64,000 nucleotides of DNA, from contig NZ_CP098774.1 of the NCBI RefSeq assembly GCF_028473665.1, positions 4,335,501 to 4,399,500 of the forward strand, in the 5' to 3' direction. Source of the stretch: Sphingomonas sp. QA11. GTDB taxonomy: Bacteria; Pseudomonadota; Alphaproteobacteria; Sphingomonadales; Sphingomonadaceae. Numbering within the stretch: the stretch's first letter is position 1; every line of letters starts with the position of its first letter. Below the pieces are notes generated by a model, which worked only from the letters and a program-made list of their open reading frames with translations, was not told the origin of the DNA and did no database searches. Positions 13,451 to 51,212 of this stretch are shown piece by piece. Both the position numbers and the translations under genes were made by a program.

Positions 13451-14368
13451 ATGTCCGACCAGCCCGCACCGCCATCGACGCGCCTTGCGGTGCTGATCCC
13501 GTTCGGCATCGTCACCCTGATCTGGGGATCGACCTGGATCGTCATCACCGGCCAGCTCGGCGTTGTGCCGCTCAACTGGTCGGTCGCCTATCGCTTCACG
13601 ATCGGCGGGCTCACCATGCTCGCTTATGCCGCGTGGAAACGCGAGACAGTCACGCTCGACAGGCGCGGCTGGCTGTTCGTGCTCGCTCTGGCGTTCACCC
13701 AGTTCTGCCTCAACTTCAACTTCGTCTATCGGGCTGAGACCTACATCACGTCAGGCCTCGTCGCGGTGGTGTTCGCGCTGCTGCTCGTCCCCAATGCGAT
13801 CTTCGGCCGCATCTTCCTGGGCCAGAAGCTTGGCGGGCAGCTAATCGTCGGATCGGTGGTGGCGATGGCGGGTGTCGCGCTGCTGTTCGTCCATGAGGCG
13901 CGCTCCGATCCGCATGGCCCCCAGGCAGCGCTCGCCGGGGTCGGCGTCACCTTGCTCGCGGTATTGTCCGCCTCGACCGCCAACGTCCTGCAGGGAACCC
14001 AGACAGCGCGTCGCTATCCGATGGCGCCGACGCTCGGCATCGCCATGCTGCTCGGCGCGGCGATGGACGCGACGATCGCCTGGACGATTGCCGGCCCGCC
14101 AATGATCGAGCTTCGGCTCGGCTATATACTCGGCCTGCTCTATCTTGGCGTGATCGCCTCGGCGCTGGCGTTCACCCTCTATTTCGGGGTGCTGCGCATC
14201 ATCGGCCCGGCCAAGGCAGCCTATTCCAGCGTGATCATCCCGGTGATCGCGATGCTGCTGTCGACCATCTTCGAAGGTTATCGCTGGTCGTTGCTTGCCG
14301 GTGCCGGCGCTGCGTTGACTGGCGTCGGGCTGGTCATCGCGCTGAGGGCACGCAGGCCGGCCCGGTAA
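13451..14368 (+). CDS. EamA/DMT-family transporter
   Basis: The 305-residue protein has about ten hydrophobic segments arranged as two EamA repeats, beginning LIPFGIVTLIWGSTWIVITGQLG, a hallmark of drug/metabolite transporters that export amino acids or metabolites. The second repeat contains YLGVIASALAFTLYFGVLRIIGPAKAAY. The C-terminus (RARRPAR) runs 91 bp into the convergent SDR gene, coding on both strands. Substrate unknown. Confidence 0.9.
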   Translation: MSDQPAPPSTRLAVLIPFGIVTLIWGSTWIVITGQLGVVPLNWSVAYRFTIGGLTMLAYAAWKRETVTLDRRGWLFVLALAFTQFCLNFNFVYRAETYITSGLVAVVFALLLVPNAIFGRIFLGQKLGGQLIVGSVVAMAGVALLFVHEARSDPHGPQAALAGVGVTLLAVLSASTANVLQGTQTARRYPMAPTLGIAMLLGAAMDATIAWTIAGPPMIELRLGYILGLLYLGVIASALAFTLYFGVLRIIGPAKAAYSSVIIPVIAMLLSTIFEGYRWSLLAGAGAALTGVGLVIALRARRPAR

Positions 14369-30295: not shown

Positions 30296-30382
30296 GCCCA
30301 GATGGCGGAATTGGTAGACGCACCAGCTTCAGGTGCTGGCGGTCGCAAGGCCGTGGAGGTTCGAGTCCTCTTCTGGGCACCA
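30296..30382 (+). tRNA. tRNA-Leu, anticodon CAG
   Basis: The 87-nt gene folds as a class II tRNA. The acceptor strands GCCCAGA and TCTGGGC pair, the anticodon arm CCAGC-TTCAGGT-GCTGG carries CAG, a variable arm follows, and the T arm has GGTTCGAGTCC. The discriminator A and CCA are encoded. Its 3' end adjoins the integrase gene, so it is the probable attachment site of the element to the right. Confidence 0.95.
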
Positions 30383-30546
30383 TTTTCCCGGTCCATTGAC
30401 GTTCATCAGCGTCGCGTAAGTGGCTGGGTAAAAAGCCTTTTTCCAAATATCTTTCCGACGAGATTTGGGCGCATCCGCCGACATACCACCAGTTTTGGTG
30501 GCACATTTCGGCAGTGGATTCGCCCGTTTTCGGACGGAGATACCCC

Positions 30547-31812
30547 ATGGCTCTTACGGCCCTTGCGATCAGAAATGCGCAGCCTCGAACAAAGGCCTAC
30601 AAGCTCAGTGACGAGCGCTCCCTCTTCCTCCTGGTGATGCCGAATGGCGCCAAGTACTGGCGCTTTCGCTATCGCTTCCTCGACAAGCAGAAGACGCTCG
30701 CGATCGGCGTGTGGCCTGAGGTCAGCCTTGCCGATGCCCGCGTCAAACGCGACTCCGCACGCCGGATGGTCGCGGACGGCATCGATCCGATGGTCGAGAA
30801 AAAGCGCCGGAAGCTTCGGGCGCATTTCGATGAGAACAACACATTCCGGGCTGTCGCGGAGGAATGGTTCGTCAAGATCACCCGCGAGGAACGGGCAGAG
30901 GTGACGCTCAGCAAGGTGCGCTGGCTACTCGATAAGGTCTATCCGTTTCTCAGCGACATCCCGATCCATGAGATCGAAGTGCAGGAAGTGTTGGCCGTGC
31001 TCCGAAAAATCGAGGCGACGGGCCGCTATGAGAGCGCACGGCGCATGCGAAGCGTGATCAGCCGCGTCTTTCGCTACGGCATCGCCACGGGGCGGGCGAA
31101 AGTCGACCCTGCGCGCGATCTGCGCGGCGCGATCATCGTTCCCAAGACCAAGCACTTCGCCGCGATCACGCGGCCGAAGGAAGTGGGCAAGCTGCTCCGG
31201 GACATCGACGATTGCCCTGGATACGCGATCACCAAGCTCGCGCTGCGCATGACGCCACACGTCTTCGTACGCCCTGGAGAGCTGCGCCGGGCCGAATGGA
31301 GCGAGTTCGACCTGGAGCGCGCGGTGTGGTCGATCCCGGCTGAGAAGATGAAGATGCGCTGGCCGCATCAGGTGCCGCTGTCGCGACAGGTGCTGGACCT
31401 GCTCGACGAGATACGTCCGCTGACCGGCCACAGCCCCTATGTCTTCCCGGCCTCCCATACCTGGAAGCGCCCCATGTCGGAGAACACCGTCACCTTCGCG
31501 CTCCGGCGGATGGGTTACAGCGGCAGCGAGATGACCGCGCATGGCTTCCGGGCGATGGCGGCGACCCTGCTCAACGAGATGGGGCTATGGAACCCTGACG
31601 CCATCGAGCGGCAACTCGCGCACATGGAGAATAACGGCGTGCGGCGAGCCTATGCGCGCGGACAATATTGGGAAGAGCGCGTGCGCATGATGCAACACTG
31701 GTCCAATTATCTCGACCAGCTCCGCGGCGGGAACGGCAGCGACAAGTCTTCCGATGACAGCAAGGTGGTCACGGTCGATTTTGGGAGTCGCTCGAAGCGG
31801 GCACTTCAATGA
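30547..31812 (+). CDS. P4-type tyrosine integrase of the conjugative element
   Basis: The start is the ATG giving MALTALAIRNAQPRTKAYKL, with GGAG at good spacing. The 421-residue protein has an N-terminal DUF4102 arm-binding domain (1-90), a SAM-like core-binding domain, and a catalytic domain with Arg in VFVRPGELRRAEW, HGFRAMAATLLNE (HxxR), the second His in LAHMENN and the Tyr in RAYARGQYWEER. It sits 165 bp after tRNA-Leu, reading away from it, the classic arrangement for tRNA-targeting islands. It would recombine attP with the tRNA 3' end. It appears intact. Confidence 0.93.
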   Translation: MALTALAIRNAQPRTKAYKLSDERSLFLLVMPNGAKYWRFRYRFLDKQKTLAIGVWPEVSLADARVKRDSARRMVADGIDPMVEKKRRKLRAHFDENNTFRAVAEEWFVKITREERAEVTLSKVRWLLDKVYPFLSDIPIHEIEVQEVLAVLRKIEATGRYESARRMRSVISRVFRYGIATGRAKVDPARDLRGAIIVPKTKHFAAITRPKEVGKLLRDIDDCPGYAITKLALRMTPHVFVRPGELRRAEWSEFDLERAVWSIPAEKMKMRWPHQVPLSRQVLDLLDEIRPLTGHSPYVFPASHTWKRPMSENTVTFALRRMGYSGSEMTAHGFRAMAATLLNEMGLWNPDAIERQLAHMENNGVRRAYARGQYWEERVRMMQHWSNYLDQLRGGNGSDKSSDDSKVVTVDFGSRSKRALQ

Positions 31813-32168: not shown

Positions 32169-32516
32169 GTGCCTAATGAGGATAGTAAGCAGCAACCTAT
32201 CGCCAATGTGCTCGTGATGCTCGGCGAGCGGATCGAGAAATATCGTCTGTCGCGCAATCTGCGTCAGCAGGATGTAGCAGAGGCAGCCGGAGTCCGGCGG
32301 GGAACCGTTAGCAAGCTCGAAAAGGGCGGCGGTACGATCGAGACGCTGGCACGGGTGCTGCGCGCGCTCGATATCGGGGATCGCCTGCTGGACATCGTAC
32401 CCGACGCGCGCCTGAGCCCGATGGATGCGCACACGACGCGAGGCACCGAGCGAGCGCGCGCCCGCCCGCAAGACCCCGATCAGGACGATGGGCCCTGGTC
32501 CTGGGGGGAGGAATAG
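32169..32516 (+). CDS. hipB: HipB-like XRE-family antitoxin/repressor
   Basis: The 115-residue protein starts at a GTG and has a helix-turn-helix of Xre type: GERIEKYRLSRNLRQQDVAEAAGVRRGTVSKLEKGGG, followed by TIETLARVLRALDIGDRLLDIV. The charged tail ending DDGPWSWGEE carries a C-terminal Trp like HipB antitoxins. The stop is 3 bp before hipA. In HipBA systems HipB binds HipA and represses the operon. The pair probably stabilises the conjugative element. Confidence 0.85.
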   Translation: MPNEDSKQQPIANVLVMLGERIEKYRLSRNLRQQDVAEAAGVRRGTVSKLEKGGGTIETLARVLRALDIGDRLLDIVPDARLSPMDAHTTRGTERARARPQDPDQDDGPWSWGEE

Positions 32517-32519
32517 TCG

Positions 32520-33839
32520 ATGCCGGATGTCATACGCGCTGAAGTCTGGCTATGGGGCCGGCAGATCGGTGCAGTCCTCTGGGACGATCAGCGCCAACTC
32601 GGATCGTTCGAATATGATCCGAAATTTCTAACCTCACGGATCGAGATCGCGCCGCTCACGGTGCCGCTCCGCGCGGGCGTGTTCGACTTTCCCAACCTGT
32701 CGCGCGATACGTTCAAGGGCCTGCCGGGATTTCTGTCGGACAGCTTGCCCGACAAGTTCGGTAACCTGCTCATCGATCGCTGGCTCGCCGAGCAGGGCCG
32801 GACCGCGAGCAGCATGAACCCGGTCGAACGACTCTGCTACACGGGCGTACGCGGGATGGGCGCGCTCGAATTCCGTCCAGCCAAAGCCGATGTCGATCGC
32901 AAAAGCGAGCATGTCGAGATCGCGCACTTGGTTGACCTGGCCTCGACGATCCTGACCCAGCGAAAGGCGCTCAAGGGCCAATTGGATGGTACGCATGATG
33001 CGGCCGCGCTCCAGGAGATCCTCAAGGTCGGCACCTCGGCCGGTGGCGCGCGCGCCAAGGCCGTGCTGGCCTGGAATCCGACGACCGGTGAATTCCGATC
33101 GGGTCAGGTGGAGGTAGCCGAGGGGTTTGAATCCTGGCTGCTCAAATTTGATGGCGTCGCCGACAATAGCGACAAGGAACTGGCCGACCCGAAAGGCTTC
33201 GGTCGCCTGGAATATGCCTGCTACCTTGCCGCGCGCGACGCCGGCATCGAGATGATGCCATGCCGGCTACATGAAGAGGGCGGGCGGGCGCACTTCATGA
33301 CCAAGCGTTTCGATCGCACCGCGAGCGGCGGAAAGATCCACATGCTATCGCTCGGTGCCATGCGACACTTCGATTTCAACTTGGCGCGTGCTTATTCCTA
33401 CGAGCAGGCGATCGAGACGATCCGCAAACTCGGCCTCGGACAGAAAGCGATCGAAGAGCAGCTGCGCCGGGCTTATTTCAACATCCTGATTCGCAACCAG
33501 GACGACCATGTCAAAAATATCGCCTTCCTGATGGATCAGCAGGGCGCGTGGCGCCTGTCGCCCGCTTTCGACGTCGCCTATGCGCATAATCCGTCCGGCC
33601 CGTGGACGAGCGAGCATCAGATGTCGCTCAACGGCAAGACCACCGACTTCACCCTCGACGATCTGCTCGCATTCGCCAGCTTCTGCGACGTCAAATCGGC
33701 CCGCGCGAAATCCATCCTCGAGAAGGCCCATAAGGCCGTCGCCGACTGGGATCGCCATGCGCATGCCGCGGCTGTCCCGGCAGGGCTCTCCAATCGGGCC
33801 AAAGCCGCGTTTCGCACCACCATCGCCACAGCTGGCTGA
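32520..33839 (+). CDS. hipA: HipA-like serine/threonine kinase toxin
   Basis: The 439-residue protein has the N-terminal HipA subdomain (about 1-120), a glycine-rich nucleotide loop GTSAGGARAK (171-180), VERFDR-like MTKRFDRTASGGKIHMLS, the catalytic loop NILIRNQDDHVKNIAF (Asp at 328-329, Asn333) and the metal-binding SPAFDV (Asp351). HipA kinases phosphorylate targets such as glutamyl-tRNA synthetase and cause growth arrest; the target here is unknown. All catalytic residues look intact. Confidence 0.9.
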   Translation: MPDVIRAEVWLWGRQIGAVLWDDQRQLGSFEYDPKFLTSRIEIAPLTVPLRAGVFDFPNLSRDTFKGLPGFLSDSLPDKFGNLLIDRWLAEQGRTASSMNPVERLCYTGVRGMGALEFRPAKADVDRKSEHVEIAHLVDLASTILTQRKALKGQLDGTHDAAALQEILKVGTSAGGARAKAVLAWNPTTGEFRSGQVEVAEGFESWLLKFDGVADNSDKELADPKGFGRLEYACYLAARDAGIEMMPCRLHEEGGRAHFMTKRFDRTASGGKIHMLSLGAMRHFDFNLARAYSYEQAIETIRKLGLGQKAIEEQLRRAYFNILIRNQDDHVKNIAFLMDQQGAWRLSPAFDVAYAHNPSGPWTSEHQMSLNGKTTDFTLDDLLAFASFCDVKSARAKSILEKAHKAVADWDRHAHAAAVPAGLSNRAKAAFRTTIATAG

Positions 33840-34332: not shown

Positions 34333-35556
34333 CTATCGCTCCCCACTTGGCCAGGGCGCGAGGACGATGTCCTTGTGCACCACGACGCGGAGCGGCCAGC
34401 CGGGCCGCACCTTGATGGTCGGCTGGACGTTGAGGTTCTTGGTGACGATCTGGTCGCCGGCGCGCGATGTGCCCTGCTGGGCGGATTCGCGGATCGCGCG
34501 GACGAGGTCGCTTTCGCGGTCGCCCAGGCTCAGCTCGGTGCCGACGCCGAGCAGCGTCGACAGCGCCACGCCCTTGAGCAGCTGCCAGGTGTGCGTGTCG
34601 ACCTTGTCGGCAAGGCCGGCATAGCCGGCCATGTCGGTCGCGGGCACATTGTCGATCCGGATCGAGCTGCCGTTCGGCAGGACGATGCGCTGCCAGACGA
34701 CCAGGGCCCGGCTTTGCCCATAGGCCACGACGCTGTCGTAGCTGCCGATCAGCCGCGCACCTTGCGGAACCAGCAGGATATGGCCGGTGACGCTGTCATA
34801 GGCGTTCTCGGTCACCTGCGCAGTCACGAGCCCGGGCAGGTCCGAGTTGAGACCGGTGATCAGGCTGGCGGCGATGATGCTGCCGGCGCTCAGCGTGTAC
34901 GGCGAGACCTGTGCCACCAACGCGTGCGGGTTGATGTCGCCGGTCTCGTCCTTGCCGGCGAGGAAGTCGGCCTTGCGCTGCTGGTTGCCCCGGTCCCGCA
35001 CCGGATCGACCGCGATCGTCGCCGATGGCGCCTCCCGTGCCGGAACGGCGGCCGGCGCAGAGGCGGGCGCAGCCGTGTTCACCGCATGCTCGGTGGCCCC
35101 GAGTTGCGTCATGATTCCGGATTCGCGCGCCGCCTTGCGCTCGGCGAGAAGCCGCTGTCGCTCAGCTTCGGCCGCCTGCGCGGCTTGGTCCGGGGAGCCT
35201 GCAGGCGGCAGTCCGCCGAACGCCTCCTGCCGGCGCAGGATCGGACGCCCGAGATCGCCGGGGAGTGGCGGCCCGAGCCTGGGCACATCGCCATAGCTTT
35301 TCGGCGCGCCGGCGAGGGCCTCGTCGTGCGCATGGTTGGCGATATCCTTCTGGTCCTCGGCGCCGGCGACGATCCGGAAGGTCGCGGGCTTGAGCGCGAT
35401 CCAGGTGACCCCGACGATCGCCGTCGATCCCAACGCCGCGATCGCGATGATCGCGCCGCGGCGAAAGCGGATAATCCGGTTCGGGCGGCCGCGCAGCACC
35501 AGCGTCTCGGGATCGACCTTGGGCGAGGTCGCGGCATCGGGCGCGGTCTCGCTCAT
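34333..35556 (-). CDS. trbI: conjugal transfer protein TrbI (VirB10-like)
   Basis: The 407-residue protein has a short cytoplasmic tail, one membrane helix (about 34-55), a Pro/Ala-rich periplasmic linker and a C-terminal VirB10 beta-barrel domain. Recognisable segments include SPYTLSAGSIIAASLITGLNSDLPG, AQVTENAYDSVTGHILLVPQGARLIGSYDS and PNGSSIRIDNVPATD. It spans the envelope as part of the secretion core. It overlaps trbG by 4 bp. Confidence 0.93.
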   Translation of the reverse strand: MSETAPDAATSPKVDPETLVLRGRPNRIIRFRRGAIIAIAALGSTAIVGVTWIALKPATFRIVAGAEDQKDIANHAHDEALAGAPKSYGDVPRLGPPLPGDLGRPILRRQEAFGGLPPAGSPDQAAQAAEAERQRLLAERKAARESGIMTQLGATEHAVNTAAPASAPAAVPAREAPSATIAVDPVRDRGNQQRKADFLAGKDETGDINPHALVAQVSPYTLSAGSIIAASLITGLNSDLPGLVTAQVTENAYDSVTGHILLVPQGARLIGSYDSVVAYGQSRALVVWQRIVLPNGSSIRIDNVPATDMAGYAGLADKVDTHTWQLLKGVALSTLLGVGTELSLGDRESDLVRAIRESAQQGTSRAGDQIVTKNLNVQPTIKVRPGWPLRVVVHKDIVLAPWPSGER

Positions 35557-36500
35557 GATACCTTCCGCTGCCGCCGGCTCCGGGCGGCGCCGACCCGGAC
35601 GATACGGACCACGGCCTGTTTCTTCGTGCCCAACCGAAGCTCGGCGGCGTCGAACAGCCGGTCGACCACATAGAAGCGGCCGGTCATCCGGTAGTTGACG
35701 AGCTGCGCATCGCCCCTGTCGCCGATGACGAACAGCGGCGGCGCCTCGCCGACGCCGACGCTCGCCGGGAATTCGACGAACGTCTGCCGCCCGTCGTCGA
35801 ATGCACGCAGCGGCCGCCAGGCAGGCCTGTCGCCGGTCACCGCATAGCCGAAGTTCAGCTGCTCGACAGCGAGGCCCGAAGCGACCGGCCTTGCCGCTTC
35901 CGCCGACGCCTGCTGGCGGCGGATCGCGATCATCTCGTCCTGCGGATAGGTCCAGGACAAGGCGGCCATGGCGGTGGCCGGCGTGCTGTCGAGCTGCAGA
36001 TGATAGGCGCGCCGATCGGTCGTGATGACGAGGTTGGTCGAGAGCCCGGCGGCGAACGGCTTCACGAGGATATGGACGCGCCTGCTCTCGCCGGAACCGC
36101 TGGTCGTGTCGCCGAGGGTCCAGCGCGCCGTGTCGCCCGCCGCCACCGAGACGATCGCCTCTCCGGGCTGTAGGGCGATGTCGCTGACCCGCTCGGGCGC
36201 GGCGAACAGGCGGTACAGGACGCCCTCGCCATAGGGGTAGACCTGCACGGCGTTGACGAAGGCCGGGGCCGCAGGCTCCTGGGTCGCTTTCGCATTCGCC
36301 GTGCGAACCCGAAGCTCGGCCGGCGACGGCTTGTGGTGACGGGGCGCCACGGGAGGCACTACCGACGGGGCAGCGATGGTAGTCGCGACCGGCGGCGAGC
36401 TGGGACTCGCCGTGGCGGCCTGAAGCGGCTGGGGCGGCGAGGTTTGCGCGAAAGCGGGCACAGCGACGAGCGCGCTCGTCGCAAGCAGGATGCGGTTCAT
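35553..36500 (-). CDS. trbG: conjugal transfer protein TrbG (VirB9-like)
   Basis: The 315-residue protein starts with a signal peptide (MNRILLATSALVAVPAFAQ). A Pro/Ala-rich spacer precedes the VirB9/CagX domain: NAVQVYPYGEGVLYRLFAAPERVSDIALQPGEAI and, near the end, RPLRAFDDGRQTFVEFPASVGVGEAPPLFVIGDRGDAQLVNYRMTGRFYVVDRLFDAAELR (key residues are the F-DDG-T and the Y-V-VD-LF patch). It forms the outer-membrane complex with TrbI. ATGA overlaps join it to trbF and trbI. Confidence 0.93.
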   Translation of the reverse strand: MNRILLATSALVAVPAFAQTSPPQPLQAATASPSSPPVATTIAAPSVVPPVAPRHHKPSPAELRVRTANAKATQEPAAPAFVNAVQVYPYGEGVLYRLFAAPERVSDIALQPGEAIVSVAAGDTARWTLGDTTSGSGESRRVHILVKPFAAGLSTNLVITTDRRAYHLQLDSTPATAMAALSWTYPQDEMIAIRRQQASAEAARPVASGLAVEQLNFGYAVTGDRPAWRPLRAFDDGRQTFVEFPASVGVGEAPPLFVIGDRGDAQLVNYRMTGRFYVVDRLFDAAELRLGTKKQAVVRIVRVGAARSRRQRKVS

Positions 36501-37303
36501 GGGCGGTTCTCCAGTTGGGCTTGGGAGGGCTGGCCGAGGCGGGGATCGAGTGGCGATCCGCTGGGCACGCCGGGATCCGGCACGGGCGTCAGCGCCGTGC
36601 CCGACGCATGGTCGGCAGGCGTCTCGAGCTCGCGGCTCCAGTCGATCGCATCGACATAGAGGCCGAGCGGGTTCCTGCGCAGCGTCTCAGCGTCGCGCGG
36701 CGGCTTGAGCAGGACCGTGACGATCGCGGTCCAGCGCGACGTGCCCGCGAGGCTCCCGCGGTCATAGGCGCGCTCGGCCCATTTCACCTGGAAGCTCGTC
36801 GCGGATGCGCGGACCACGCTGGTCACCTGGACCGAGACGGTCTTGTCGCCGACATCCGCGAACGGGTTCGCCGAGCGGGCATATTCGCCCAGGAAGATGG
36901 CGCCGCGCTTCGAGGCGAAGTCATAGGCCTGGAGCCAGTTCTCCCGCATCAGCACCGCGTCCAGCGACCGGCCCCGGATGTCGGTGACGAAGCGCGCGAG
37001 GAACCAGGCGAGTTGGGGATCGGTCGGCCGGTATTCGGCGGCGGCGGGGGACACTGCCTGTGCCTGGCCGAGGCTGTCGACCGCGACGACATAGGGGACG
37101 ACGCGGCTCTGCATCGACTGCCAGACCAGCGCGCCCGACAGGCCGGTGGTGAGCGCCAGCCCCCCGAATGCCATCAGCCGCCAGTTGCTCGCCTGGGCCC
37201 GGGCGGAGCCGATCCGCTCGTCCCAGAGCTGGCCCGCGCGGCGGTACGGTGTCTCGGGTTCGTCCGTGCGCCCGTAGCGCTGGACGGCACGTTTGAAGCG
37301 CAT
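36497..37303 (-). CDS. trbF: conjugal transfer protein TrbF (VirB8-like)
   Basis: The start is the ATG giving MRFKRAVQRYGRTDEPETPY, overlapping the trbL stop (TGATG); sequence further upstream belongs to another frame of trbL. The 268-residue protein has one membrane helix (about 43-63) and a periplasmic VirB8 domain with VVAVDSLGQAQAV, PQLAWFLARFVTDIRGRS and SFQVKWAERAYDRG. It is an inner-membrane assembly factor of the secretion channel. Confidence 0.92.
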   Translation of the reverse strand: MRFKRAVQRYGRTDEPETPYRRAGQLWDERIGSARAQASNWRLMAFGGLALTTGLSGALVWQSMQSRVVPYVVAVDSLGQAQAVSPAAAEYRPTDPQLAWFLARFVTDIRGRSLDAVLMRENWLQAYDFASKRGAIFLGEYARSANPFADVGDKTVSVQVTSVVRASATSFQVKWAERAYDRGSLAGTSRWTAIVTVLLKPPRDAETLRRNPLGLYVDAIDWSRELETPADHASGTALTPVPDPGVPSGSPLDPRLGQPSQAQLENRP

Positions 37304-38607
37304 CAGTCCTTCTCCTTGATGTCGGGGGTCGCGCCGCCGCCGCCGCGATCCGAACCCTGGAAGGCGTGGATCGCCGCTTGGCGATGGTGACGGCGGGATT
37401 GCGTGTTCTGGAGGTCGCGCGCCCAACCCGGCATGGCGTTAGACGCAGGAGCGGACGCTCCCCCGGGGTTGGACTGCGCGCCCGTCGTGCCGGCATTCCA
37501 GGCGGCGCGCTGGCCGTCGGCTGCCGCCGCGCGGAGCCCGAGCCCGCCGCCCATGCGCTGCGCGAGCGCGCCGCAGGCGGCGGTCGCGACACCGCCCATG
37601 CCGGCTGCGACCGATTTCGAGCCGGAAGCCTCCTGGCCGAGCTTGTACGCGGTCGAGGCTCCCGACCCCATCGAGGTGCCGGCGCGGATCGCGCCGAGCC
37701 CTGCACCGGCAAGCCCCTTCGCCGCAGCCATGCCCGCGCCGCCGGCGACCGCGAAGCCGCCCGCCGCAAGCGCCGTGGTCGCGACCGCCGAGCCGGCGCC
37801 GAGTTGCGGCGCGCCGGAGACGAGCCCGGAGGCGATGCCCGGCCCGAAGATGCCGAGGCCGAACAATGCGAGGCTGGCGAGCACGAGGCTCATCGCCTGG
37901 CCGATATCGGGCTCCTTGCCCTGGAGCGCCGAGGCGAACTCGGTGAAGAAGCCCGAGCCGATGCCGACGATCACCGCCAGCACCATCACCTTGATGCCCG
38001 AGGAGATGACGTTGCCGAACACGCGCTCGGCCAGGAAGCTGGTGCGGTTCCACAGCGCGAACGGCACGAGGATGAACCCAGCGAGCGTCGTCAGCTTGAA
38101 CTCGAGGATGCAGACGAACATCTGCACGGCGAGGATGAAGAAGGCGACGATCACGATCACCCAGGCGATCAGGAGCACCATGATCGTCATGAAGTTCTCG
38201 AAGAAGGTCGTGAAGCCGAGCAGGTCGCTGGCCTGGTCGAGCAATGGCCAGGCGGCCTGGAAGCCGGTGCCCGCGAGGCGGCCCGGGCGGAGCAGGTCGT
38301 CGGCCGAGAGCGTGCCCCCGCCGGCGGTCAGGCCTGCCTGCGCAAAGGAGCGGAAGATGATGTCGGCGAGCGTCGAGAAGCGATTCAGGATCAGCGCGAA
38401 TACGCCGATATAGAGGATCTTCTTCAGGAAGCGGCCGATCATGTCGTCCTCGCCACCCATCGCCCAGAACAGGCCGGCGAGGGTGATATCGATGCCGATC
38501 AGCACGGATGTCAGGAAGCCGACATCGGGCCCGAGCAGGCCGAACCCGCTATCTATGTAGCGGATGAAGTCGGCCATGAACCGGTCGATCACGTTAAGGT
38601 CGTTCAC
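37303..38607 (-). CDS. trbL: conjugal transfer protein TrbL (VirB6-like)
   Basis: The 434-residue polytopic inner-membrane protein starts at a GTG (MNDLNVIDRFMADFIRYIDSGFGLLG). It has at least six hydrophobic segments and a Gly/Ala-rich cytoplasmic tail, as in TrbL/VirB6. The GTG abuts the end of a group II intron inserted in the opposite direction. The native leader (AAGGAAGAACCC) is now 2.3 kb away. Translation must rely on a weaker AGGA ten bases upstream, supplied by the complement of the intron's first bases, so expression may be reduced. Confidence 0.93.
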   Translation of the reverse strand: MNDLNVIDRFMADFIRYIDSGFGLLGPDVGFLTSVLIGIDITLAGLFWAMGGEDDMIGRFLKKILYIGVFALILNRFSTLADIIFRSFAQAGLTAGGGTLSADDLLRPGRLAGTGFQAAWPLLDQASDLLGFTTFFENFMTIMVLLIAWVIVIVAFFILAVQMFVCILEFKLTTLAGFILVPFALWNRTSFLAERVFGNVISSGIKVMVLAVIVGIGSGFFTEFASALQGKEPDIGQAMSLVLASLALFGLGIFGPGIASGLVSGAPQLGAGSAVATTALAAGGFAVAGGAGMAAAKGLAGAGLGAIRAGTSMGSGASTAYKLGQEASGSKSVAAGMGGVATAACGALAQRMGGGLGLRAAAADGQRAAWNAGTTGAQSNPGGASAPASNAMPGWARDLQNTQSRRHHRQAAIHAFQGSDRGGGGATPDIKEKD

Positions 38608-39244
38608 GTGCGTCAGGTCCTAATCAAAGAAAGGAGTGCTTTGATTTTATTGCTGTTTTTGATCTCGCAGGGTGCAAGGCCCTGCGCACCGTGTGACGCA
38701 ACATGCGGTGACGAGCGGTGGGTGAGTCGCGCCGGGTGCTTCCGGTGAGGCGTAAATCAGCAGAACCCATAAAAGTCGGGCAGACGGGGACTTCCGACCC
38801 TGTGGCTGGCCCGGCGAGCGAGCTTGCCATGGCAAGGGAAACCGAACCGATGGTGGAAGCCCCGGCAGACTTGAACATCCGCCAACTCGGAAGTGGGCGG
38901 GTCGATCTGCGGCGCGAGCGGCAGATCGGCGGAGCGTTGGTCCGTGGTGTGGATGCACGGACTGGGGGTGCGCGGCGTGCCGCGCGCCAGCCTCGACACA
39001 AGCTTGCGGTGTGCCGTGGCCCGAATCCGCACGGGGTAGAGTCGGTGCCTAAAGCAGGCGAGAGATCAATTACGGAACCTGAGAACCCTGCCATCGCTCC
39101 CGGCGTCTCCAAACGTCGGGTGACTGAAGCGACCAGCGATCGCGGTGATGGGGGGCGGAGCCTTCGTAGTAGTCCGAGGACGGGAAAGCCGTCCACATGG
39201 CGAAGGGAGGCAGTGGATGCAGCGAGCAGGCAGGAGGCGGACCT

Positions 39245-40771
39245 ATGTCCGATGGGGTGAATACCTCGTTCGTCCTCGACATGCAGCGCAAACTGTATCG
39301 GTGGAGTCACGAAGACCCTGACAAGGTCTTCGCTGATCTGTTCAATATCGTATGCGACCGCAGAATATTGACCGCAGCTTGGGAAAAGCTTGTCCGCAAC
39401 AGCGGCAGCAAGACACCGGGCACGGACGGTATGACGCGGCGCAAGGTCGAGGAGCGTCCGGGTGGCGCGGCAGCGCTGATCGAAGAAGTTCGTGAGGCGC
39501 TTCGCAACGGAACCTATCAACCGCAACCGGTCAGGCAACGGCTCATCCCGAAGCCAGGCAAGCCGGGGAAGTTCCGCCCGCTCGGCATTCCAACGCTCAT
39601 CGACCGTCTGGTACAAATGGCTTTGAAGCTGGTCTTGGAGCCCATCTTCGAGACGGATTTTTATCCGACCTCGTATGGGTTCCGCATAGGCCGGAGCACC
39701 CACGACGCACTCGAAAGGATCGTGAAGGTCCTTCACCCGACGAAGCGCGGACCTTCGGTCTACGCTTATGTCATTGAGGGCGACATCAAGGGATGCTTTG
39801 ACGCCATCGATCATCATGTCATGATGGAACGGGTGCGAAAACGCATCGGCGACCGCAAGGTGCTGAGGCTGATCCTCGCGTTCCTGAAGGCCGGCGTGAT
39901 GGTCGAGGGAACCGTTCGTCACCCCGTTACCGGGTCGCCGCAAGGCGGTATCATCTCGCCAATGCTGTCGAATATCTACCTGACGGCACTCGATGAGCGA
40001 TACGGGCGATGGTCCCAGTGCCCTCGCGAACCATATATCAATGCCGCTGCCCGCCGGGTCAAAGACCATAAGCGGCGCAGGACGGTGTTCTATATGGTCA
40101 GATACGCGGACGACTTCGTCGTCCTCGTGGATGGCACGAGGGAGCAGGCGGAAGCGGAAAAGCGCGCGCTGGCGGAGTTCCTGAAAACGGAGCTTCGCAT
40201 GGAGCTGTCGGTCGAAAAGACCAAGATCACCGACGTCCGGGAAGGCTTCGACTTCCTCGGATATCGGGTGGCGCAGACCAGAGCCCGCAACACGGGTCGC
40301 CGTGTCGGCAACCTCTTCATCCCGAGGGGCAAGCTGAACGACCTGCGCCACAAGATCAAGGTCCTGGTGAAGCGAACTTCCACCGGGAGTATGCTCACCA
40401 CCCTGATCGACAAGCTCAACCCGATCCTGCTGGGTTGGCGGAATTACTACCGATACGCCACTGGCGCATATCGGGCGTTCCACCAACTCGACTTCTGGAT
40501 TTGGGAGCGCGTTGGGCGCTGGTTGAGAAAGAAGCACGGAGATGCGTCGTGGCCTGTGGTTCGGCGCAGCTATCATCACAGCGCACCGGGAAAACGGCGG
40601 CAATGGACCGAGGGCGCGATACGCCTGCGGTTCCTCACCGAAGGGAATACCCGTCGCTACCCGGCCCAGCTTATTACGAAACCGAACGGATGGGATGCGC
40701 CCCGTGAAGCCCGGCACCGCGCAAGCACGCGGAGCTTCTGGGATGCGTTCCACAGCCTCAGACATATCTGA
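39245..40771 (+). CDS. ltrA: group II intron reverse transcriptase/maturase
   Basis: The start is the ATG giving MSDGVNTSFVLDMQRKLYRW, preceded by GGAGGCGG; an ATG 48 bp upstream is possible. The 508-residue protein has RT motifs in order: RPLGIPTLIDRLVQMAL, YGFRIGRSTHDAL, GDIKGCFDAIDHHVM, SPQGGIISPMLSNIYL and YADDFVVL (YADD at 287-290). Next come the thumb/maturase region FLGYRVAQTRA and GWRNYYRYATGAYRAF. There is no C-terminal HNH zinc motif, so it is an endonuclease-minus type that probably uses replication-fork primers. It appears intact. Confidence 0.95.
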   Translation: MSDGVNTSFVLDMQRKLYRWSHEDPDKVFADLFNIVCDRRILTAAWEKLVRNSGSKTPGTDGMTRRKVEERPGGAAALIEEVREALRNGTYQPQPVRQRLIPKPGKPGKFRPLGIPTLIDRLVQMALKLVLEPIFETDFYPTSYGFRIGRSTHDALERIVKVLHPTKRGPSVYAYVIEGDIKGCFDAIDHHVMMERVRKRIGDRKVLRLILAFLKAGVMVEGTVRHPVTGSPQGGIISPMLSNIYLTALDERYGRWSQCPREPYINAAARRVKDHKRRRTVFYMVRYADDFVVLVDGTREQAEAEKRALAEFLKTELRMELSVEKTKITDVREGFDFLGYRVAQTRARNTGRRVGNLFIPRGKLNDLRHKIKVLVKRTSTGSMLTTLIDKLNPILLGWRNYYRYATGAYRAFHQLDFWIWERVGRWLRKKHGDASWPVVRRSYHHSAPGKRRQWTEGAIRLRFLTEGNTRRYPAQLITKPNGWDAPREARHRASTRSFWDAFHSLRHI

Positions 40772-40807
40772 GGCCCACCCCTGCCCGGTCGTCCGTGCAG
40801 GCATGGA

Positions 40808-40841
40808 GAGCCGGATGCGAGGAAACCCGCACGTCCGGTTC
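40808..40841 (+). ncRNA. group II intron domain V
   Basis: The 34-nt hairpin pairs GAGCCGGA with TCCGGTTC and TGCG with CGCA around an internal bulge and a purine-rich loop. It carries the AGC catalytic triad at its 5' base (809-811), as in bacterial group II introns. Confidence 0.85.
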
Positions 40842-40925
40842 GGAGGAGAGTATGGAGAAACTTGTCTCCGAGAGGGGATGTAGCGTTCCATACTTATCCT
40901 ACGGGTTCTTCCTTGGATCTGGGTG

Positions 40926-40968
40926 CCGCGGGGCCCGGCCAGGGGGAGCGGGTGGCTGGGCCCCGCGG
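40926..40968. promoter_or_regulatory. GC-rich inverted repeat between trbJ and the trbL leader
   Basis: CCGCGGGGCCC (40926-40936) and GGGCCCCGCGG (40958-40968) are exact reverse complements with a 21-nt centre. It lies in the 113-bp gap after trbJ, before the intron insertion point. It may be an attenuator or mRNA stabiliser. This is the place where trbK is found in many trb operons, but no trbK frame is seen. Confidence 0.4.
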
Positions 40969-41015
40969 GCTGCGACCGCGTCGGCAGAGGGCTCGTTCCG
41001 CCGCGGCCGGTCTCG

Positions 41016-41756
41016 CTATCGCTGGGGCGTGTAGGCAGTGCCGCTTCCGAGGAACCTGCGCGTCGCGGCGCGCGACGCCTCGGACTCGGTCAGCTGGCGC
41101 TGCTTCTCGAGCGCGTCGGCGCGGAACTGCGCGGCCATCATCTGCTGGAGGGCCATGCCCTGCTTGGCGGTGAACGCGAGCAGCTGGTTGGTCGCCTGGC
41201 CGATAGCGAGCGCGCCTTCCGCGCCCTGGCTGCGCGCCGCGATCTCGGCCAGCGCCTCGGCATCCTCGCGCGCCTGCTGAACGATCCCGCTCTGGACGGT
41301 GATCGTCCGGCGCAGGGCGTCGGTGCTCGCGTCGTAGCGCTCCCGGGCCGCCTGCAGCCGCTGGTCGCGCGTCGAGGCGGGATCGAAGCTGCGCGGATAG
41401 AGCGCCTTCAGCCTGGCCTCGAGCTGGTCCACCTCGAAGTCGACGCTCTGGGCCTGCTTCATCAGCCGGTCGATGCCGTCGAGCTTGTCGAGCAGCGCCT
41501 GGAGCTGCGGAAAGGCGATGCCCTTCAGGTTCCTGTCCAGCCGGAGCAGCATCTGCGCCTCGTTCTGGAGCGACTGGATCTGGTTGTTGACCTGCTGGAG
41601 CGTGCGCGCCGCGGTCAAGACGGTCTGGCTGTAGTTGGTGGGGTCGAACACCGTGATCTGCGCGTGTGCGCTGGTAGCGAAGCCCATCGTCAGCGAGCCC
41701 AGGGCACCGAGGCCCAGCGCCGTCGCGATCAGGTTCTTGCGGGTGAGGATACGCAT
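41016..41756 (-). CDS. trbJ: conjugal transfer protein TrbJ (VirB5-like)
   Basis: The start is the ATG giving MRILTRKNLIATALGLGALG; a much longer open frame upstream is only a shadow of trbE. The 246-residue protein has a signal peptide cut near SAHAQ, then VFDPTNYSQTVLTAARTLQQVNNQIQSLQNEAQMLL, the typical opening of TrbJ, and is almost wholly helical. It is a minor pilus or adhesin-type component. It begins 5 bp after trbE. Confidence 0.92.
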   Translation of the reverse strand: MRILTRKNLIATALGLGALGSLTMGFATSAHAQITVFDPTNYSQTVLTAARTLQQVNNQIQSLQNEAQMLLRLDRNLKGIAFPQLQALLDKLDGIDRLMKQAQSVDFEVDQLEARLKALYPRSFDPASTRDQRLQAARERYDASTDALRRTITVQSGIVQQAREDAEALAEIAARSQGAEGALAIGQATNQLLAFTAKQGMALQQMMAAQFRADALEKQRQLTESEASRAATRRFLGSGTAYTPQR

Positions 41757-41761
41757 CACTT

Positions 41762-44200
41762 CTACTCCTTCGCTTGGGGATCCGGGAATTGGGCGAGCAG
41801 CGCCGCGGCCCAGTCGAGCCCGGCGTCCTCCAGGAAGCGCGCGGCGAATCCGGCCGGGCCGTGCGCGGCGAGCAGCGCGTCGATGCGCGCCTGGGTGGCG
41901 GGATCGGAGGCGCCGCACAGCGCGAGCGCGATGGGCCCGAGGCCCAGCTCGAAGAGGCGGTTGCCGGCGGCGGACTGGAGGTAATAATGCCGCTTGGGCG
42001 TCGCGCGGCTGACGAGCTCGATCTGCCGGTCGTTGAGCCCGAACCTCTGATAGGCCGCGCGCCCCTGCGGCTCGATCGCCGCGGCATTGGGAAGCAGGAT
42101 GCGCTGGGGGCAGCTCTCGATGATGGCGGGTGCGATGCCGCTGTCGGCAATGTCGGCGAGGCTCTGGCTCGCGAAGATCACCGCGACATTCTTCTTGCGC
42201 AGCGTCTTCAGCCACTCGCGGATGCGCGCGGCGAACAGCGGGTGGTCGAGGAACTTCCAGGCCTCGTCGAGGATCAGCAATGTCGGGCGTCCGGTGAACC
42301 GCGCCTCGAGCCGGTGGAAGAGATAGGTCAGGACGGGCGCGACCACGCTGCCGGCGCCCATGAGTGCCTCGGTCTCGAAGCACTGGACGTCCGCCATGCG
42401 CAGATCGTCTTCGGCCGCGTCGAGCAGCCGGCCGAACGGGCCTTCGAGCGTATAGGGCGCGAGCGCCGAGCGGAGCGCCATCGACTGGAGCAGCAGCGAG
42501 AGGCCAGTGAGCGTCCGCTCCTCGATCGGCGCGCTCGCCAGACTGGTCAGCGCCGACCAGACGGCTTCCTTCACCTCCGGCGTGACCACGACCTTCTCGT
42601 GCGCGAGCAGCGCGGCGATCCATTCTGCCGCCCAGGCACGCTCGCGGGCGTCGGCGATCCCGGCGAGCGGCTGGAACGCGATCGTATCGCCGGCGTCGCC
42701 GCCGAGCCCGAGGCCGTGATGCGCACCGCCCATCGCCAGCGTGGCCGCGCGCGCCGAGCGGCCCATGTCGAAGAGGTAGAGCTGGCTCCCCGGATAGCGG
42801 CGGAACTGGAGCGCGATCAGCGCGAGCAGGACCGACTTGCCGGCACCGGTCGGCCCGATGATCATCATGTGCCCGACATCGCCGACATGGGTCGACAGCC
42901 GGAACGGAGTCGAACCGCTGGTCTCGGCATGGAGGAGCGGCGGCCCGTCGAGGTGCCGGTTGCGCGCAGGTCCCGCCCAGACGCTCGACAGCGGCATCAG
43001 GTGCGCGAGATTGAGCGTATGGACGAGCGGCTGCCGGACATTGGCATAGGCCTGCCCGGGCAGGCTCGAGAGCCAGGTCTCGACCGCGTTCAGCCCCTCG
43101 CGGATGCAGGTGAAGCCGAGCCCGTTGACGATCCGCTCGACCGCGCGGACCTTGTCCTCGACGCGGGCCCGATCCTCGTCGGCGACGGTGATCGTCGTAG
43201 TGAGGTATCCGAAGGCGACATGGTCGCCGCCCAGCGCCTGGAGCGCGAGATCGGCGTCGGCGGTCTTGTTGTCGGCGTCGCTGTCGAGCAGCTGGACCGG
43301 CTGGTTGTAGATCACCTCGCGCAGCATCGCGGTGACCGACTTGCGCTTGTTGAACCATTGGCGGCGCAGCCGGGTCAGCGCCCTGGTAGCGTCGGTCTTG
43401 TCGAGCGCAATGAACCGTGTGACCCAGCGATAGCCGAAGTCCTGGTGGTTGAGCGCGTCGAGGATCCCGGGCCGGCTGAGGCCGGGGAAGCCGAGGATGG
43501 TCAGCGTGCGTAGGTGCAGTGACCCGAGCATCGGCTCGAGCCCGCCGGTCAGCGGTGTGTCGGCGAGCAGCCCGTCGAGATACATCGGCGTCTCGGGCAC
43601 GCGCACGCCGTGGCGTCGCGTCGAGATGGTGCCATGTAGGAATGCCAGCGTCTCCGCGTCGTCGAGCGCCGCGATCTCCGGCATGAAGCCCGAGAACAGG
43701 TCGAGCGCGCGATCGGTCTCCGCGACGAACCCGGCAAGCGCCTGGCGCCAGTCGCGACCCTGTGGCGCATCGGCACGCTCGACCAGCGCGCGGCCGGCGC
43801 TGTCCGCCTGGTCGGGCGGCGGCAGGAAGGTCAAGGTGAGATGGTAGCGGCTCTCGAAATGGGCGCCCGCCGCCTCGAACGAGGCGCGACGCTCCTCGTC
43901 GACGAGCCAGGACGCCGCGTCCGGGAAGCTGCTCGCCGGATAGCCCGGCGCCTCGCGGCGCTCGGCCTCGATGTGCAGCGCCCAGCCCGACCCGAAGCGC
44001 TTGAGCACATTGTTGGCGCGCGCGCAGGCGGAGACAAGCTCGGCCTCGGTCGCCGATTCGAGGTCGGGGCCACGGAAGCGCAGCGTGCGCTGGAAGCTGC
44101 CGTCCTTGTTGAGCACCACGCCGGGCGCGACCAGCGCGGCCCAGGGAAGGTGATCGGCCAGTCGGTCGGCGCGGCTGCGATATTCGCGCAGGTTCAGCAT
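41762..44200 (-). CDS. trbE: conjugal transfer ATPase TrbE (VirB4-like)
   Basis: The start is the ATG giving MLNLREYRSRADRLADHLPW; residues before it are in the trbD frame. The 812-residue ATPase powers substrate transfer and pilus assembly at the inner membrane. Walker A is IIGPTGAGKSVLLALIA (447-463) and Walker B is PTLLILDEAWKFLDHPLF, followed by VIFASQSLADIADSGIA. Length is normal. It starts 7 bp inside trbD. Confidence 0.95.
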   Translation of the reverse strand: MLNLREYRSRADRLADHLPWAALVAPGVVLNKDGSFQRTLRFRGPDLESATEAELVSACARANNVLKRFGSGWALHIEAERREAPGYPASSFPDAASWLVDEERRASFEAAGAHFESRYHLTLTFLPPPDQADSAGRALVERADAPQGRDWRQALAGFVAETDRALDLFSGFMPEIAALDDAETLAFLHGTISTRRHGVRVPETPMYLDGLLADTPLTGGLEPMLGSLHLRTLTILGFPGLSRPGILDALNHQDFGYRWVTRFIALDKTDATRALTRLRRQWFNKRKSVTAMLREVIYNQPVQLLDSDADNKTADADLALQALGGDHVAFGYLTTTITVADEDRARVEDKVRAVERIVNGLGFTCIREGLNAVETWLSSLPGQAYANVRQPLVHTLNLAHLMPLSSVWAGPARNRHLDGPPLLHAETSGSTPFRLSTHVGDVGHMMIIGPTGAGKSVLLALIALQFRRYPGSQLYLFDMGRSARAATLAMGGAHHGLGLGGDAGDTIAFQPLAGIADARERAWAAEWIAALLAHEKVVVTPEVKEAVWSALTSLASAPIEERTLTGLSLLLQSMALRSALAPYTLEGPFGRLLDAAEDDLRMADVQCFETEALMGAGSVVAPVLTYLFHRLEARFTGRPTLLILDEAWKFLDHPLFAARIREWLKTLRKKNVAVIFASQSLADIADSGIAPAIIESCPQRILLPNAAAIEPQGRAAYQRFGLNDRQIELVSRATPKRHYYLQSAAGNRLFELGLGPIALALCGASDPATQARIDALLAAHGPAGFAARFLEDAGLDWAAALLAQFPDPQAKE

Positions 44201-44466
44201 GCTAGATATCCCCGCTGCCGCAGGTGGCGCGCGAGCACCGCGGCGAAGTCCGGGTCGCGCTTCGCGGCGAACACGGCGATGGTGTGCCCGACCGCCCAGA
44301 CCAGCACGCCCGCGATCCATTGCTGGAGGCCCAGCCCCAGCGCGGCGGCGACGGTGCCGTTGACGATCGCGATGGCGCGCGGCGCGCCGCCGAGCAGGAT
44401 CGGCTCGGCGAGCGAACGGTGCAGCGGCGCCTCGAACCCGTCGAGATGCTGGCCATCACCGATCAT
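44194..44466 (-). CDS. trbD: conjugal transfer protein TrbD (VirB3-like)
   Basis: The 90-residue protein (MIGDGQHLDGFEAPLHRSLA to RQRGYLAC) has PILLGGAPRAIAIVNGTVAAALGL and a second hydrophobic stretch WIAGVLVWAVGHTIAVF, the VirB3/TrbD layout. ATGA overlap with trbC and a 7-bp overlap with trbE mark the operon. Confidence 0.92.
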   Translation of the reverse strand: MIGDGQHLDGFEAPLHRSLAEPILLGGAPRAIAIVNGTVAAALGLGLQQWIAGVLVWAVGHTIAVFAAKRDPDFAAVLARHLRQRGYLAC

Positions 44467-50567: not shown

Positions 50568-51200
50568 TCATATTTCAGTTCGCTCTGCCAGGGTCAGGGC
50601 ATCTTCGATATCGACACCGAGATATCTGACAGTGTTCTCGATTTTGGTATGGCCGAGCAATATCTGGATCGCACGGAGATTGCCTGTAGCCTTGTAAATC
50701 ATCGAGGCCTTGGTTCGGCGCATCGAATGCGTGCCATACTCGGCGCGCCTCAAACCGATTGCGGTCACCCATTCATCGACCAGCCGGGCGTACTGCCTTG
50801 TGCTTAGATGACCAGCGTGATCAACCCGGCTTGGGAAGACGTAGTCACCAATCGTGCCTCCTCGGCGTTCCAGCCATGATAGGAGGCTCGCCCGCACATC
50901 AGCGGTTAGTTCAAATTGCACTGGCCGACCGGTCTTTTGCTGGACGACTATCGCGCGGGTTCTAATTTCTGCGCCCGAGACGACGTCGTCGATCTTGACC
51001 TTCACCAGATCGCAACCGCGCAGCTTGCTGTCGATCGCGAGGTCAAACAACGCTCTATCGCGAAGCCGCCCCTCGCGTTCTAGGAAGAAGCGAACTGCCC
51101 AGATCTGCTTCTGTGTCAAAGGTCGTTTGGTGCCGACCATCTTGCCTGCATTCCATGCCGGTCGCGCCTGCATTGCGGGATCGTATTTCGAATATCCCAT
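50568..51200 (-). CDS. minimal tyrosine recombinase A
   Basis: The start is the ATG giving MGYSKYDPAMQARPAW, seven bases after GGAG. The 210-residue protein is nearly all catalytic domain, with no separate core-binding domain. Active-site residues are Arg61 (KLRGCDL), a Lys near 89, HSMR (His158, Arg161), His184 (LLGHTKIENT) and Tyr193 (VRYLGV). A second copy at 60954-61586 has the same length and differs at 31 of 210 positions. It probably moves the DNA beside it; substrate sites are unknown. Confidence 0.88.
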   Translation of the reverse strand: MGYSKYDPAMQARPAWNAGKMVGTKRPLTQKQIWAVRFFLEREGRLRDRALFDLAIDSKLRGCDLVKVKIDDVVSGAEIRTRAIVVQQKTGRPVQFELTADVRASLLSWLERRGGTIGDYVFPSRVDHAGHLSTRQYARLVDEWVTAIGLRRAEYGTHSMRRTKASMIYKATGNLRAIQILLGHTKIENTVRYLGVDIEDALTLAERTEI

Positions 51201-51212
51201 GATCATTCTCCT

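Follow-up and report, generated by a model that had tools for sequence, protein, structure and literature searches.

A complete group II intron is situated between trbJ and trbL in the 64,000-nucleotide stretch of Sphingomonas sp. QA11 DNA that was analyzed here (the window), where it lies antisense to the trb operon and directly adjoins the GTG start codon of trbL. From the sequence comparisons presented below, the balance of probability favors an intron that, read in antisense, passes as a translated cistron, is followed by re-initiation at trbL, and homes into the start codons of conjugation genes.

The intron spans 2295 nt of the plus strand, from 38608 to 40902. These are the boundaries assigned to it in a preliminary description of this DNA, and they agree with the intron ends, the RNA family match and the domains of the encoded protein. 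The 5′ end is GTGCG at 38608 and the 3′ end is TAC at 40902, in keeping with the GUGYG and AY termini of group II introns. Domains V and VI are recognized at 40806–40902 by Rfam family RF00029 (63.3 bits, gathering score of 40), and within this match domain V occupies 40808–40841 of the plus strand, its exact limits having been set by eye. The intron-encoded reverse transcriptase/maturase (RT; 39245–40771, plus strand) contains RVT_1 and GIIM domains, matches TIGR04416 above the cut-off, and has an open reading frame that can be extended upstream to an ATG at 39197. Its best relatives of solved structure, by sequence, are group II intron proteins, and no endonuclease domain is found among its domain matches. 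Together with the EBS1–IBS1 pairing described below, these features place the element among the group II introns.

On the minus strand, a trbE-like ATPase gene (41762–44230) and trbJ (41016–41756) lie upstream of the intron in the operon. Downstream are an intact trbL (37303–38607) and the likewise intact trbF, trbG and trbI (34333–37309; VirB8, CagX and TrbI families). As the NF010449 match of TrbL spans residues 1–434, its GTG is a credible start. A Shine–Dalgarno (SD) sequence, AAGGA, is located in the exon on the trbJ side at 40910–40914 (minus strand), 7 nt (AGAACCC) from the junction, and an intron-borne AGGA at 38618–38621 (minus strand) lies 10 nt before the trbL GTG; both distances had been given correctly in the preliminary description. 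Its statement that splicing is unable to repair the trb mRNA is also borne out, because the intron is antisense to the operon.

Comparison with intron-free relatives confirmed the position of the start codon. It covered 29 intron-free Sphingomonadaceae trbL loci (L100–L128), listed among the matches of a TrbL search that found hits in 99 of 298 genomes. All 29 carry ATG, GTG or TTG at the homologous position, and an SD-like sequence is present upstream of the start in these loci (spacings of 3–13 nt were searched). In one of them, L120, 14 of the 15 nt immediately upstream of the start are identical to those at the insertion site of the second intron copy described below, with equal spacing. 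Furthermore, 15 plasmid records match the trbL exon of a related site, L040; the match ends no more than 4 nt from the start codon in 14 records and 10 nt short of it in the remaining one, and in the three of these records that were inspected, the end of an annotated trbK-alt is separated from trbL by 4, 2 and 4 nt.

Elsewhere in the window, the region 30296–31812 contains a tRNA gene followed by an integrase-like open reading frame (below the family cut-off), with trb and traG genes further on; the trb operon is therefore probably part of an integrative conjugative element at this tRNA gene. At 32169–33839, a weak HipA-family match, also below the cut-off, is preceded by a small open reading frame that by eye looks like a helix-turn-helix protein, and this pair is possibly a HipBA-type toxin–antitoxin. 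A XerC/XerD-like recombinase of 212 aa is found at 50568–51206, and its match covers the C-terminal part of the profiles only.

A second copy of the intron (L002; the window copy is L001) is present in the same genome at G000:C1:4072917-4075211 on the minus strand. The two copies are 100% identical, and the second precedes another trbL whose protein is 69% identical to that of the window trbL. Identical copies in front of divergent trbL genes suggest recent homing between two conjugative elements within one cell. A third trbL, at 14035, shows 57% identity over the compared stretch; the intron search of this genome gave signals at the two copies only. Separately, two adjacent partial TrbL-family matches (profile positions 118–194 and 1–74), each in a 442-aa open frame, are observed at G000:C1:2413794-2414477; they probably represent one divergent TrbL/VirB6-like protein.

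Few further relatives of the intron were found. Across six genome sets, matches at E ≤ 1e-100 were found in 2/385, 1/5, 0/1, 2/17, 3/388 and 2/397 genomes, counts that include the own genome wherever it was searched. At E ≤ 0.001, the intron is matched in 74 of 397 Sphingomonadaceae genomes, all but two of them in short stretches only; the two are the own genome and G067 (L003), a 70% relative. No plasmid relative exceeds about 71% identity over most of the intron, and the search of viral contigs gave one distant locus. A pattern scan of one genome per species for 84,980 species yielded 58 loci with related RTs. Among these and the two copies of the own genome, seven trbL sites have a 5′ junction that can be read (L001, L002, L037, L038, L039, L040 and L047); at every one the intron adjoins the start of trbL in antisense, and trbL is an intact open reading frame at each of the seven; related introns thus adjoin intact trbL genes in five other bacteria besides the own genome.

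Other translation starts are also occupied. L054 adjoins the start of a TraD-family gene (Pfam) and L041 that of a similar gene recognized by eye. In L043 and L044, the insertion lies 11 nt before a MobA/MobL relaxase gene, which in L043 is also TraA_Ti, and L052 lies 11 nt before a DUF736 gene. Distant relatives are found 10–12 nt before DUF736 genes as well, in L032 (annotated) and in L033 and L051 (by eye). L049 lies in antisense before a ParB-like gene. The eight distinct introns that adjoin a start codon form, together with L042, one clade of nine rows with support of 100/99. L042 has lost its 5′ flank and follows trbJ; it and L053, which has only 7 nt of this flank, are excluded from the site counts. 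A rule that all relatives target start codons fails, as L134 and L135 apparently lie, by sequence, inside a parB-like gene. The introns of L043 (5378–7658) and L044 (1455–3753) have the open antisense frame described below, and their other flank resembles, by eye, an oriT nick region.

The site preference may be traced to base pairing. EBS1 was located by a systematic exon–intron pairing scan of 19 rows, two of which are repeats, and falls at one alignment column across the scanned rows. In the window intron, EBS1 is GTGGAT (38949–38954, plus strand) and pairs with the IBS1 GTTCAC (38602–38607, plus strand), which corresponds to the first two codons of trbL, start codon included, read in antisense. 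The corresponding EBS1/IBS1 pairs of relatives are ATGGGT/GCCCAT, ATGCGT/GCGCAT, GAGCCT/GGGCTC, GGAGAT/TTCTCC and GTATGA/TCATAC, some with unpaired last bases, so that EBS1 covaries with IBS1 across unrelated sequences. Only a weak match is seen in L043, L044, L049 and L032, the last of these scanned one base off. The covariation of EBS1 with the start codon read in antisense shows that the site is targeted, and the lineage has been retargeted, often onto start codons or SD sequences in antisense orientation. Inspection of another variable loop by eye gave no EBS1; it was the systematic scan that located it. Insertion of the terminator type known from class C introns does not describe this site, where the 5′ exon consists of trbL coding sequence in antisense; no terminator is present at the 5′ junction, and the one terminator-like site found by the scan (1.9 expected) lies inside the intron.

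Read in the direction of the operon, the intron contains a single long open frame. This frame extends on the minus strand from an ATG at 40889–40891 to a TGA at 38624–38626 (755 codons, 38624–40891), runs codon-aligned with the RT, and passes through both the RT gene and the ribozyme parts. The ATG is preceded within the intron by AGGATAAGT. In L001, L002 and L037, the frame is open over 2274 of 2295 nt. Similar extents are observed in L038, L040 and L041 (2289/2297 nt), L039 (2312/2312), L044 (2289/2299) and L043 (2279/2281), and in the truncated L042, L052, L053 and L054 (1997/1999, 1515/1531, 1278/1323 and 1260/1268 nt, respectively). The two antisense stops of L052 lie beyond the end of its RT match, where no RT resemblance is seen, and were excluded from the openness and register counts. 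L047, inserted at trbL, is open over 2016 of 2296 nt with one internal antisense stop. By comparison, the other two antisense frames contain 20–31 stops each in the seven full-length relatives L037–L041, L043 and L044. Summed over 11 introns including that of the window, with the terminal 24 nt excluded and with L042, L049 and L053 absent from the count, the three antisense registers contain 1, 248 and 255 stops; when only the 5′ ribozyme part is considered and each stop position is counted once, the registers contain 1, 7 and 16.

Insertions and deletions relative to L038, compared over the first 2250 nt of full-length introns, amount to 3, 3, 12 and 15 nt. The exception is a 1-nt deletion near nt 110 that is common to L001 and L037, and the last stretch, which this deletion shifts in register, stays open. 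Outside the open group, the best antisense frame has 5–11 stops (L032, L033, L034, L045 and L051), and the introns that appear to lie in the parB-like gene, L134 and L135, contain 4 and 2 stops, respectively, in this register. Over the 600 nt that precede the RT, eight alphaproteobacterial introns from beyond the clade show 2–4 stops of the register, whereas six of the eight actinobacterial introns counted have none. In the Streptomyces introns L058 and L061, the latter apparently sense-inserted (by eye), every stretch counted is free of stops in this register. Given this scarcity of 5′ stops in distant relatives, ribozyme sequence or GC content may explain some of the openness of the 5′ part of the frame. 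A 60% relative on a separate branch, L049 (5375–7640; also L003), is open over 2223 of 2266 nt before its ParB-like gene and is possibly an independent case of openness.

Signals for starting and re-starting translation are placed at the two ends of this frame. At the trbJ-side end, an in-frame ATG is present at antisense nt 12 or 13 in every open intron with a 3′ end (L001, L002, L037–L044, L047 and L049); an ATG near the 3′ end is not exclusive to these introns and also occurs in the non-open L045, L046 and L050. In L001 (40897–40900, minus strand), L002 and L037, the antisense ATG is preceded at a distance of 5 nt by an AGGA that belongs to the intron. In L038, L039, L040 and L041, an additional in-frame GTG forms the first antisense codon, behind the old SD of the gene; the open reading frame upstream of it ends 3 nt (L038) and 2 nt (L040) before this intron-borne GTG. 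At the other end, the antisense stop precedes the start codon of the gene by 16 nt in L001, L002 and L037 and by 5 nt in L038, L040 and L041, and in L039 the frame extends to a TGA that overlaps the trbL ATG.

The SD-like sequence at the intron end has a predicted pairing energy of −3.9 to −7.3 kcal/mol at the nine start-abutting sites (eight distinct introns). This range is comparable to that of 29 natural trbL starts (−3.3 to −7.6 kcal/mol, median −4.4); ten other intron ends give −1.5 kcal/mol or weaker. An open frame, a start, an SD and a stop near the next start are thus all present, and by sequence the antisense strand has the form expected of a translationally coupled cistron. The intron-end SD is confined to one clade and hence represents one evolutionary event. 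The open introns at TraA and DUF736 genes lie 11 nt upstream and keep the leader of the gene, and for these the model holds without its SD component.

Codon usage in the RT indicates that stops on the opposite strand are avoided. In the 10 full-length RTs of the open group, the codons that would form antisense stops are absent (TCA in 0/117 TCN, CTA in 0/430 CTN and TTA in 0/32 TTR codons), and other A-ending codons are common (CCA 28/261, ACA 43/270, GCA 39/310 and GTA 21/321). The eight non-open relatives use both kinds (TCA 19/92, CTA 15/316 and TTA 4/46; CCA 38/217, ACA 45/229, GCA 46/293 and GTA 24/233), A-ending codons being generally somewhat commoner among them. Codon evolution was simulated along the tree from a stop-free RT, with the codon frequencies of either set, under four models; L042 was included, and the truncated L052, L053 and L054 and the open L049 from its separate branch were left out. 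The simulated tips acquired a mean of 2.2–5.2 antisense stops, and all ten RTs remained stop-free in 0 of 1000 simulations under each of the four models. On this evidence, selection for openness of the antisense strand is well supported.

No comparable constraint is seen on the amino acids that the frame would encode. In the 5′ ribozyme part, the synonymous fraction of the open frame is not raised (0.304 versus 0.292 and 0.378), which argues that openness alone is kept; in the short 3′ part, the values are 0.324 versus 0.371 and 0.284. The predicted product has no Pfam or NCBIfam match. Since stops are avoided and amino acids are free to vary, the frame would be one for reading and not for one particular protein. 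Constraint on the ribozyme may be a contributing cause both of the open 5′ part and of the bases that form the SD.

In the proposed mechanism, a mobile intron of an alphaproteobacterial lineage would home, in antisense, into the translation starts of conjugation genes. Because EBS1 pairs with the antisense of the start codon, insertion occurs exactly between the SD and the start codon. A start codon near the trbJ-side junction would then open a stop-free frame of ~2.3 kb across the RT gene and ribozyme domains. This frame would end beside the downstream start, and ribosomes that have traversed the intron are proposed to re-initiate on trbL by means of the new AGGA that the intron supplies. Selection would act on openness and not on a protein, and the likely benefit is that translation would prevent polarity of the antisense insertion on the remaining transfer operon. 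Insertion between the SD and the start codon would be tolerated because the antisense strand of the intron offers a place to start, runs on without stops and carries a new SD. The preliminary description had instead emphasized an SD split from its gene and a lowering of transfer. As the main reading this is not supported, given intact trbL, trbF, trbG and trbI genes here, an intact trbL at all seven trbL sites and an antisense frame selected to be open. Its other suggestion, a usable start region supplied by the intron, is to be preferred, given an intron-end SD in the natural range. The antisense frame, the second identical copy and the recurrence at further start codons were not part of that description.

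Other explanations account for parts of these observations. The openness could be a by-product of codon bias and ribozyme sequence in an ordinary insertion that lowers TrbL and transfer, and several points speak for it: certain distant introns have few or no stops in the register (only 2 in L135), an antisense insertion is a non-conditional disruption according to a targetron review (PMC3898094), and Ll.LtrB is reported to have reduced conjugation 3- to 4-fold in its host (PMC6003770). It is nevertheless unlikely in view of the missing stop-forming codons among otherwise common A-ending ones, the use of those codons by most non-open relatives of similar GC content, the outcome of all four simulation models, and the intact trbL genes. 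A similarly low probability is given to the idea that ribosomes on the operon mRNA block its annealing to the intron RNA and so protect intron folding and RT synthesis, with trbL expression being incidental. Such a role would explain why stops are avoided and why selection on amino acids is missing, but it leaves the SD-like sequence at the intron end and the exact targeting of start codons without explanation.

It is very improbable that a functional protein, overlapping the RT, is encoded in the antisense frame. The 755 codons, the start and the SD-like sequence would allow for such a protein, but the lack of a Pfam or NCBIfam match and of a synonymous excess in the ribozyme part argue against it. 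Expression of trbL and the downstream genes from a promoter within the antisense strand of the intron is considered just as doubtful. No evidence in its favor was found, and a scan of 38500–41100 for the sigma-70 consensus gave no minus-strand site and one plus-strand site (0.7 expected).

If translation through the antisense strand is correct, a ribosome-readable intron would represent another way for a retroelement to coexist with a host gene. The intron would be unspliceable from the mRNA and yet of low cost because it is gene-like, and a genetic parasite may in this manner spread without breaking its host element. A full-length frame would be preserved solely so that it stays open, on the strand facing a reverse transcriptase and a ribozyme. 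Whether the lineage exemplifies two-way compatible retroelements, in which a sense strand with ribozyme and RT is combined with a stop-free antisense strand that has a start and a re-initiation site, such that ribosomes restart on the interrupted transfer gene and homing into start codons of conjugation operons proceeds without splicing and without causing polarity, is an evenly balanced question. According to the literature, group II introns of bacteria settle within other mobile elements or in intergenic regions where they do no harm (PMC8919778), and in biotechnology antisense insertion is used to disrupt a gene permanently because such an intron is unspliceable (PMC3898094). A literature search of limited reach returned, in the accessible portions of the sources, no description of antisense homing into start codons or of an open antisense frame for group II introns.

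Among known systems, the intron shares with Ll.LtrB the property of a mobile group II intron that resides in a conjugation gene. Ll.LtrB is spliced from the mRNA of its host gene. It sits inside the gene and lowers its expression via mRNA targeting, whereas the present intron is antisense, lies before the start codon, and has an open antisense frame. The host gene of Ll.LtrB is a conjugative relaxase gene of Lactococcus (PMC6003770). Class C introns, which insert after terminators or at attC, are similar in that a lineage-specific functional DNA context is recognized, and those at attC sites are likewise inserted opposite to the direction of gene-cassette transcription (PMC7923331). A 2015 review lists homing sites, terminators and attC as the three known specificities (PMC4424553). 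In contrast to class C, the target of the present intron is a translation start, and its 5′ junction has no terminator. The class D introns RmInt1 and RmInt2 of Sinorhizobium meliloti also have alphaproteobacterial hosts. RmInt1 is not known to have an endonuclease domain and in this respect resembles the present intron, where none was found. Unlike the present intron, RmInt1 and RmInt2 target the insertion sequences ISRm2011-2 and ISRm17 (PMC5894124). Finally, in coupled bacterial cistrons the stop and start lie within a few nt of each other and an SD-like sequence precedes the stop, as is also observed at the trbL-side ends in L038, L039 and L040. The cistron proposed here differs from these in that, free of selection on a protein, it would be the reverse strand of a retroelement.
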